A stretch of DNA of 64,000 nucleotides. Origin: Neisseria weaveri (GTDB lineage: Bacteria; Pseudomonadota; Gammaproteobacteria; Burkholderiales; Neisseriaceae). How positions within the stretch are numbered: the stretch's first letter is position 1; every line of letters begins with the position of its first letter. The stretch spans positions 620,001-684,000 of the forward strand of contig NZ_LR134533.1 in the NCBI RefSeq assembly GCF_900638685.1, given 5' to 3'. Below are positions 5,135 to 6,651 of the stretch, one piece after another. Both the position numbers and the translations under genes were made by a program. The notes beneath the pieces were generated by a model, which was not told where the DNA came from, ran no database searches, and saw only the letters and a program-made list of their open reading frames with translations.

Positions 5135-6235
5135 TCAATCAAACTGCTTCTGCCCATTCCGCACAAACGGCAGTTTCAACACGCGCACGTCCACTTCCTT
5201 GCCGCGAATCACCACTTTGGCCGCGTCGCCTTCAAAGTCTTTGGGCACGCGGGCGATGGCGATGGATTGTTTCAGGCTGGGGGAAAACACGCCGCTGGTG
5301 GTGATGCCTTTGCCTTGTTCGGTAACGACTTCCATGCCTTCGCGCAATACGCCGCCTTTGGCCAGCAGCAGGCCGACTTGTTTCACGTCCACGCCTTTTT
5401 CTTTGAGGGCGACAAGGGCGGTTTTGCCGATGAAGTCGCGGTTTTCGTCTTTCAAATCCACCGTCCAGCCCATGCCGGCTTGCAGGGGGCTGGTTTCGTC
5501 GTTCATGTCGTGGCCGTAGAGGTTCATGCCGGCTTCCATGCGCAGGGTGTCGCGTGCGCCGAGGCCGCAGGGTTGTACGCCGGCTTCGCGCAGGGCGGAG
5601 AAGAAGGCGGTGGCTTCGGTGCCGGGCAGAATCACTTCTACGCCGTCTTCGCCGGTGTAGCCGGTGCGGGCGACAAACCAGTCGTTGCCTAGGTCTGCGC
5701 CTTGGAAGGGTTTGAGCGCGTTAACGGTTTCGGCCCATTCGGGTTTGACGGCGAGCAGTTTTTCAATGGCTTTTGGGCCTTGCACGGCGAGCATGGCGAG
5801 GTCGTAGCGGGGGGTGATTTCGATGCCGAACGCTTCGCCCACTTTGGCAAATTGTGCCAAGTCTTTTTCGCGGGTGGCGGCGTTGGATACGATGCGGTAT
5901 TGGGTTTCGGCTTCGTTGGTGCGGTAAACGATGAGGTCGTCCATCACGCCGCCGTTGTCGTTGAGCATGGCGGAATAGAGGGCTTTGCCGACGAATGAAA
6001 GTTTGGCTACGTCGTTGGCGAGCAGTTTTTGCAGCCATTGCTTGGCTTGGCTGCCTTTGATGTCGGAAACGAGCATGTGGGATACGTCGAACATGCCTGC
6101 GTCGGTGCGCACGGCTTCGTGTTCTTGGATTTGCGAGCCGTAGTTGACGGGCAGCTCCCAGCCGGCAAAATCAACAAGTTTGCCGCCTGCGTTTTTATGG
6201 GCTTGGTTGAACGGGGTGGTTTTGAGGGTAGTCAT
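5135..6235 (-). CDS. gcvT: glycine cleavage system T protein (aminomethyltransferase)
   Basis: Transfers the methylene carbon from the aminomethyl group on lipoylated GcvH to tetrahydrofolate and releases ammonia. The 366 residues compare with 364 in E. coli. The start is the ATG at 6235 ([14 protein letters not shown]), preceded by GGAG. Family segments are [18 protein letters not shown], the folate-binding core [14 protein letters not shown], and [18 protein letters not shown] tandem glycine riboswitch lies in the 5' leader, so expression should rise with glycine. Both gcvT and gcvH are preceded by the same CCTATGGAGAAC block around the ribosome site. The next gene upstream is a divergent Lrp/AsnC regulator. 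Confidence 0.96.
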
Positions 6236-6285
6236 TGCTCTGGTTCTCCATAGGTTAAGGGCTGCGATGCTTTTCACGCGCCCCT

Positions 6286-6506
6286 ATCTGTCCTTGAACC
6301 TGAGATTTTCGGCAACAGGCCGTCTGAATCGAATGCCTGTGTGTCCGCCCGAATGTTTTCAGACGGCCTTTTTCCCTTCGGTGGGCACAGCCGCGCCGCT
6401 CTCCAGATGATTTGTGATGAAATGCAGTCCTTTTACCTGAGCGATTTAAGGGTGTCTGCGCCTTCGGTGGCTTGCCGTGTAATACGGTGTAGCACTCTCC
6501 TGCATT
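6286..6506 (-). promoter_or_regulatory. tandem glycine riboswitch in the gcvT leader
   Basis: Two aptamers in series are read on the minus strand. Aptamer 1 (6506-6421) is closed by AATGCAG pairing with CTGCATT and holds the conserved GGAGAG, CACCGAAGG and CTCAGGTAAAAGGAC blocks. Aptamer 2 (6408-6286) is closed by ATCTG/CAGAT and has GGAGAG, CACCGAAGG and CTCAGGTTCAAGGACAG. Twelve bases separate the two. An imperfect stem (GGGCGCG with GCAGCCC) lies between aptamer 2 and the gcvT ribosome site and could be the expression platform. Uniquely, the variable stem of aptamer 2 is formed by an inverted DUS pair (see findings). The identification rests on the core motifs and the gcvT context. Confidence 0.93.
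6317..6369 (-). repeat. inverted DUS pair inside riboswitch aptamer 2
   Basis: AGGCCGTCTGAA at 6317-6328 and TTCAGACGGCCT at 6358-6369 are separated by 29 bases. In the transcript they would form a 12-bp stem between the CCGAAGG and CTCAGG blocks, the place of the variable P3-side stem of glycine aptamers. Confidence 0.9.
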
Positions 6507-6651
6507 CGGGAAGATTATGGCTTTATTTTCGACATAGGGCAAGCGATTCTTTACAAACTTCACAATCCTTTCGTCATATTGTTTGCGAAGCAGTTTTTTT
6601 GCCGTTCTACACAACATGCCGCCTGTAAATGAAGATTCTCCGCACTCTTAA

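Follow-up and report, generated by a model that had tools for sequence, protein, structure and literature searches.

We think it likely that the tandem glycine riboswitch of gcvT in the window (the whole stretch of DNA analysed, 64,000 nucleotides) is an ordinary translational ON switch in which the outer helix of aptamer 2 – P3b – is built from DNA uptake sequence (DUS). The best reading of our data is that a permissive outer helix in an already known switch has accepted, and in part reused, spreading DUS, apparently with the sensor left intact. DUS are usually regarded as uptake tags or as parts of terminators; here they stand as part of an outer helix in a ligand-binding RNA, and in other genera copies matched to the dialect of the genome occupy different places in that helix. 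The DUS had been noticed in an earlier, sequence-only reading of this DNA: the observation is right, and it is more general than that reading saw. An origin of the P3b helix from DUS is described nowhere in the literature searched. The system offers a natural experiment, both on how much change a riboswitch can bear beside its pocket and on the question whether a functional RNA can be remodelled by uptake bias.

The gcvT leader and its DUS pair

The riboswitch occupies positions 6278-6512 of the minus strand and lies upstream of gcvT (5135..6235, minus strand), which encodes the aminomethyltransferase of the glycine cleavage system and thus places the switch before a gene of glycine metabolism. 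Relatives of this gene were found; its open reading frame was listed from an upstream GTG, and we place the start at the ATG at 6235. The sequence-only reading had called both aptamers readable, and the RF00504 covariance model agrees: on the minus strand aptamer 1 (6415..6512) scores 58.1 bits over model positions 1-94 and aptamer 2 (6278..6416) scores 41.3 bits, each above the curated cut-off of 32 bits, with an overlap of 2 bases between the two matches. Some listings of RF00504 matches in the window give aptamer 1 alone; one of these left out a single match from the same clan that overlapped and scored lower. The CCGAAGG and CTCAGG core blocks, the P1 closing helix and the A-rich pocket strands are all present, P1 of aptamer 2 pairing ATCTG (6404-6408) with CAGAT (6286-6290). 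Whole aptamer 2 was folded with RNAfold for 29 of the 52 leaders described below; the minimum free energy structure for the window forms the ATCTG/CAGAT helix, the rest of the core not being native. Directly before aptamer 1 is a promoter-like site, TTGCCC-17-CATAAT (6514..6542, minus strand), a consensus match alone (9/12) whose position is consistent with the transcription start quoted for N. gonorrhoeae in the parts of PMC13104608 drawn on here.

By sequence reading, the 64 nt between CCGAAGG and GAAAATCTCAGG constitute the P3 segment of aptamer 2 – pocket strand plus P3b – at 6311..6374 on the minus strand. Within it lie two exact 12-mers: DUS arm 1, AGGCCGTCTGAA (AG-DUS; 6358..6369, minus strand), and DUS arm 2, TTCAGACGGCCT (inverted AG-DUS; 6317..6328, minus strand), 29 bases apart and both in P3b, exactly where the sequence-only reading had put such a pair. 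Its statement that DUS lie inside a ligand-binding RNA also stands, the variable stem that holds them belonging to an aptamer that passes the RF00504 cut-off. The window contains 97 copies of the 10-mer GCCGTCTGAA against 0.08 expected by chance, a DUS density of about 1.5 per kb, and the 12-mer AGGCCGTCTGAA is present in 2549 copies (1210 + 1339) in the window's genome (G000). Given this abundance, the window's 12-mers are true DUS of an AG-DUS species. Transformation with AG-DUS is reported for N. elongata and N. meningitidis in the passages of PMC3630211 drawn on here.

Forms and predicted folds of P3b

Riboswitches were found in 42 of 46 genomes of the genus and in 10 of 37 other genomes of the family, giving 52 leaders, all of which were compared, with P3 segments delimited by motif. 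The search returned none in four of the genus genomes, three of which (G004, G010 and G013) also gave no gcvT match. In G032 (L290) gcvT is present with no riboswitch match; in G008 (L120), where gcvT was not found, the riboswitch precedes an open frame that by eye resembles gcvH. Aptamer 2 was reported in 34 of the 42 genus genomes and went unreported in eight (G008, G012, G014, G015, G020, G025, G036 and G037) by a search whose filters lose weak matches; that of G005, at 31.8 bits, is slightly below the cut-off of 32. Long P3 forms fit the family model poorly.

We sorted the 42 Neisseria leaders into three sets, a grouping of our own. In set A (22 leaders) the segment reads AAGGC C GTCTGAA-CCACCA-TTCAGAC ... 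second hairpin ... GCC, or is related to that pattern, and the DUS provides GGC or GGCC of the P3b base together with GTCTGAA of arm 1. In five DUS-bearing leaders of this set aptamer 1 stands at -308 from gcvT, the figure also given for N. gonorrhoeae in the parts of PMC13104608 drawn on here. Set B, eight leaders including that of the window, has a complete inverted pair of 12-mers enclosing a loop of 25-58, while the 12 leaders of set C have other P3 forms, mostly short. A minority of the leaders (8/42) have the complete inverted pair; commonest is one DUS with a half inverse copy. Six more distant leaders (L011, L012, L014, L015, L016 and L018, from Silvimonas, Vogesella, Chromobacterium and others) have, by reading, a short P3b without DUS, and the long P3 forms are therefore probably derived. 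Two further leaders deserve mention. Aptamer 2 of G047 (L160) is without P3b altogether (GGGGCAAAACTCTCAGG), yet both its aptamers score over the cut-off, and L003, a record titled uncultured Moraxella, combines a GcvT 78% identical to that of the window with a leader that has two CCGAAGG blocks and a short P3b.

The 22 leaders of set A, 17 of them with an exact DUS, have in common a Y-shaped element with two covarying arms, which is new here. Applied unaided to the 16 distinct segments of the set, RNAalifold gives exactly two hairpins. Six of the 11 pairs in the arms have changed on both sides in compensatory fashion and 99.4% of cells are paired; none of 500 shuffles matched the paired cells, the compensatory changes or the covariation score, and 365 of 500 matched the number of pair types, results that relatedness may inflate. 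In slid controls the share of paired cells never exceeded 39.1%, and no more than 2 pairs had changed on both sides. At the foot of P3b, where the 5′ strand GGC of the window (6366..6368, minus strand) is common to DUS arm 1, three base pairs are possible in 50 of 51 leaders – G033 is the failure, and G047, having no P3b, is left out of the count – by way of eight triplet combinations (GGC/GCC, GAC/GTC, GAA/TTC, GTT/AAC and others).

Two folds of P3b are predicted for the window's species. The first is a rod: the DUS arms pair with each other over 12 bp, so that the 5′ GGC pairs with DUS arm 2 and the core-adjacent GCC (6311..6313, minus strand), the 3′ strand of the P3b base, is left unpaired. 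The second is a Y, in which the GGC/GCC base forms as in other leaders, CGTCTGAA pairs with TTCGGGCG in the loop (6346..6353, minus strand; a degenerate inverse of DUS arm 1) to give arm 1, and a second arm, ACAGGC ... GCCTGT (6315..6340, minus strand), has a 3′ strand that overlaps DUS arm 2. The sequence-only reading had the variable stem made by the DUS pair; a DUS:DUS stem is indeed predicted, but as just one of these two folds.

The existence of two folds invites the idea that the DUS stem takes part in control: by choosing arm 2 (rod) or the GCC (Y) as its partner, the GGC would make the pocket looser or tighter and in that way tune the switch. We consider such a role unlikely, although it has points in its favour. 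Rod and Y, at predicted energies of -23.0 and -21.4 kcal/mol, are 1.6 kcal/mol apart in G000, G002, G028 and G045; all 8 double-DUS leaders retain the core-adjacent GCC, though arm 2 could substitute for it; and the Y does better than most loops shuffled with dinucleotides kept, its energy being reached by 2 of 1000 in G000, 0 of 1000 in G002 and 35 of 1000 in G021, and by 67, 68 and 64 of 1000 in G011, G012 and G034, respectively. Against this, a gap of 1.6 kcal/mol does not exceed the error that is usual in predictions of this kind, and in G021, G011, G012 and G034, where the shuffle results are weak, the rod is favoured by a predicted 3.7-7.3 kcal/mol. Complementarity of a single arm to arm 1 is, moreover, not rare among shuffled loops (195 of 5000 in G000, 185 in G021, 61 in G012 and 986 in G034, each of 5000). 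As far as the modelling goes, a real Y has a good case in the group of the window and a weak one in the other double-DUS leaders.

Location and dialect of the DUS

In 29 of 52 genomes the P3 segment contains an exact DUS of the genome's own dialect (39 matches in 3120 nt), a number that overstates independence, many of the leaders being close relatives, and to which five genomes given no dialect (G047 and G050-G053) could not contribute. The corresponding figures are 1 of 52 for aptamer 1 (5047 nt), 0 of 52 for the rest of aptamer 2 (3829 nt), 2 of 52 for the expression platform (2907 nt, the platform of G008 being taken as 100 nt) and 16 of 52 for the 200 bases upstream (19 matches in 10400 nt). 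Some exact DUS is found in P3 in 32 of 52 genomes when the mucDUS genomes G007, G019 and G027, which have AG-DUS there, are added, and among the 52 leaders every exact DUS in aptamer 2 lies inside the P3 segment. Five DUS-rich genomes (G003, G008, G017, G018 and G044) are without an exact DUS in P3.

Other structured RNAs served as controls. Searched with six dialect words, 2 of 42 RNase P RNAs contain an exact DUS (that of G044, L268 at 1638, and that of G022, L275 at 249); of the 65 TPP matches listed, 38 aptamers were searched and none contains one. Some details of these RNAs are worth recording for themselves. The RNase P RNAs of G001, G043, G016, G008, G011 and G029 (L269-L274) are some 35-105 nt longer than those of other species and contain no exact DUS; in L269, L273 and L274 the extra stretch resembles, by eye, an extended hairpin (CAGCCTTTTG ... 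CAAAAGGCTG). In L225, L233 and L237 an inverted DUS pair, ordered TTCAGACGGC..GCCGTCTGAA, begins 2-3 bases past the TPP aptamer match.

These counts bear on a simpler explanation – pure hitch-hiking – according to which DUS fell by chance into DUS-rich non-coding DNA and the stem means nothing structurally. Upstream DUS in 16 of 52 leaders do indicate that non-coding DNA is DUS-rich in general, the density in the window is high, and the two RNase P RNAs have their DUS too. Yet the contrast between P3 and the other segments of the riboswitch is strong, the same helix is used in other genera with different dialects, and the arms covary where the DUS itself has been lost, all of which renders hitch-hiking improbable. 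In G001 the arm is kept as GTTTGAA/TTCAAAT, in G018 as TCTGAA/TTCAGA and in G008 as CCGCA/TGCGG around the same CCACCA loop; outside set A, GTTTGAA/TTCAAAC is found in G006, G026 and G041. The persistence of arms without DUS supports selection on the folded P3b and not on the DUS as such. With leaders that have the arm and lack the DUS (G001, G008 and G018), it becomes easier to tell selection for structure apart from selection for uptake.

Matching the copy in the riboswitch to the genome's own dialect was done on the basis of the DUS dialects of PMC3630211, in the passages drawn on here. Dialects were assigned from whole-genome counts and, for 28 genomes including that of the window, also from 10-mer and 12-mer counts in samples of 17-64 kb; in our own grouping AT-DUS and AG-DUS, with their common 10-mer, are pooled, and the mixed genome G001 is placed with the GCCGTCTGCA dialect. 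This last dialect occurs at different places in P3 of two Neisseria genomes, G031 (as an overlapping palindrome) and G033 (on the 3′ side), and in G001 it is in the platform and not in P3. The sim/king-type dialect is present in P3 in three of five such genomes, representing three non-Neisseria genera: in G081 as a 17-bp inverted pair the second arm of which is one mismatch off, in G066 at the apex (with a one-mismatch copy in aptamer 1 as well) and in G054 on the 3′ side. In G046 the copy instead lies in aptamer 1, by reading in P2, and in G076, a weak sim/king genome, the own dialect is absent from P3. Among mucDUS genomes G024, whose leader equals that of the N. sicca record L001, has mucDUS in P3, and in three of the four the P3 copy is the AG form and not the own dialect; none of five wadDUS genomes has its own dialect in P3. 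In P3 of all six AT-DUS genomes the 10-mer is preceded by AG and not by AT; conservation of AAGGC at the P3b base would lead one to expect this, and relatedness could account for it too.

The occurrence of dialect-matched DUS elsewhere in the P3 stem points, on present sequence comparisons, to repeated acquisition. On a gcvT tree an exact DUS in P3, of any dialect, has been gained or lost at least 11 times, a count that is a guide only. On this tree 17 of 51 inner branches are open and the bootstrap had not settled; G042 and G043, one mismatch off, were scored as without DUS, and G008, having no gcvT, was left out. The wadDUS genomes G006, G026 and G041 have a gcvT close to that of the window, and gcvT itself has probably been exchanged by transformation. 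The sequence-only reading had left two options: DUS spread accepted by the riboswitch, or a hairpin with a part in control. Location bias toward P3, the RNA controls and the gcvT tree lend the former the better support.

In two genomes from another genus of the family (G060 and G062; L292-L295), no 12-mers are commoner in the samples than AGTCTGCCGGAA and the overlapping GTCTGCCGGAAA, runs of N aside. G062 has 21 and 22 copies of them in 23 kb, with an inverted pair seen once, and the overlapping AAGTCTGCCGGA, according to reversed-pattern control counts, is present genome-wide in 404 and 546 copies in G060 and G062. The AGTCTGCCGGAA motif differs from simDUS, AGGCTGCCTGAA, at two positions and, so aligned, is without the CTG that the passages of PMC3630211 drawn on here give as common to all DUS dialects. 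We regard it as a candidate for a new DUS dialect.

Possible origin and working of the helix

How might a DUS have come to form part of an aptamer? P3b lies beyond the glycine pocket and tolerates widely differing sequences provided that it folds on itself and begins with a short base helix. A DUS would fit such a site because its GGC can serve at the same time as 5′ strand of the base helix. We infer that uptake biased toward DNA with a DUS established one in this permissive helix because AAGGC was already present. In either state of the switch P3b would self-fold, joining two distant halves of the pocket across 64 nt, and in the window's species the RNA may do so as the 12-bp DUS:DUS rod or as the Y with the usual P3b base. 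At low glycine the core strand of aptamer 2 that contains CTCAGG is predicted to pair with the ribosome-binding region of gcvT. In the window this OFF stem would consist of CTCAGGTTC (6296..6304, minus strand), the anti-RBS partner, and GAACCAGAG (6238-6246) within the ribosome-binding region GGAGAACCAGAG (6238..6249, minus strand), following the logic set out in the parts of PMC13104608 drawn on here. Similar stems are predicted in G020, G006 and G030, and not clearly in G011 and G021. A more far-reaching version, in which uptake bias repeatedly rebuilt the pocket-adjacent helix in several genera with their own dialects and a bistable P3b joined the glycine switch in double-DUS species, is conceivable, if on the doubtful side.

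The switch itself has a close published relative. A glycine riboswitch had earlier been predicted from RNA-seq (PMC4176332), and the tandem riboswitch of N. gonorrhoeae gcvT is described as a translational ON switch (PMC13104608, J Bacteriol 2026): in the parts of that paper drawn on here, glycine raises gcvT expression in vivo via the leader, an effect attributed to translation, and at low glycine nucleotides of aptamer 2 pair with the ribosome-binding region, as supported by mutants. The same parts describe the P3 loop of aptamer 2, 73 nt long, as unusual, with a predicted Y of two stem-loops, and the P3 region as variable among Neisseria. Gene, tandem aptamers, translational ON logic and long P3 loop of aptamer 2 are alike in the two switches; the window's species differs in its full inverted DUS pair and in a different loop. 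The main text of PMC13104608 has no mention of DUS, DNA uptake or uptake sequence, and in the parts drawn on here no covariation analysis of the gonococcal Y was seen. Structured RNA is likewise not a subject of the passages of PMC3630211 drawn on here ('RNA' at the start of a word has no match). In the literature on DUS with riboswitches or RNA hairpins we found no description of a DUS inside an aptamer, as judged in part from passages of PMC7237195, PMC1852404, PMC1590033 and PMC2267715; in those of PMC7237195 the Neisseria uptake sequence is a mere primer tail. The sequence-only reading knew of no description of this arrangement; the riboswitch and its 73-nt P3 loop are described for N. gonorrhoeae in PMC13104608, and the identity of the stem as DUS is alone unreported in the literature searched. 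New here are the own-dialect DUS in P3 (29/52), the other dialects elsewhere in the stem, the covarying Y and the two predicted folds.

A parallel of another kind is provided by the palindromic elements of Rickettsia, repeats that are inserted in structured RNA genes. There, as in P3b, a functional RNA puts up with a repeat in its outer helices. Unlike those elements DUS are not known to be mobile, and their maintenance is ascribed to uptake bias.

DUS pairs in Neisseria transcription terminators were reportedly the subject of work by Ambur in 2007. That the inverted pair in the riboswitch is itself an intrinsic terminator, whether of gcvT (attenuation) or of antisense transcription, is very improbable: DUS pairs are common in such terminators (PMC1852404, in the passages drawn on here), the window's pair has their commoner orientation, GCCGTCTGAA then TTCAGACGGC, in transcribed non-coding DNA, and CTTTTTCCC follows it on the antisense (plus) strand (6368-6376), but the pair lies inside an aptamer, its loop of 29 compares with a commonest gap of 3 in the window, no T-run follows on the gcvT strand, where the pair is succeeded by CTGTTGCCGAAA, the antisense T-run stems from a P3 start, GAAAAA, unique to the window's genome among 51, and N. 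gonorrhoeae, in the parts of PMC13104608 drawn on here, has neither a predicted Rho-independent terminator nor a sign of premature termination. A sense-strand terminator was rejected on the gap, the CTGTTGCCGAAA tail and the want of a call in a terminator scan with a loop limit of 8; the pair has neither the short loop nor the T tract on the transcribed strand that mark terminators of the DUS type. The wider claim of the sequence-only reading, that in most of the window the inverted DUS pair acts as a terminator, calls for caution: among 21 neighbouring pairs at most 100 bases apart, 12 have a gap of 2-4, but a T-run of at least 5, on either side, accompanies only 5 of the 21 window pairs of that orientation, and the antisense side of the riboswitch pair is among those five.
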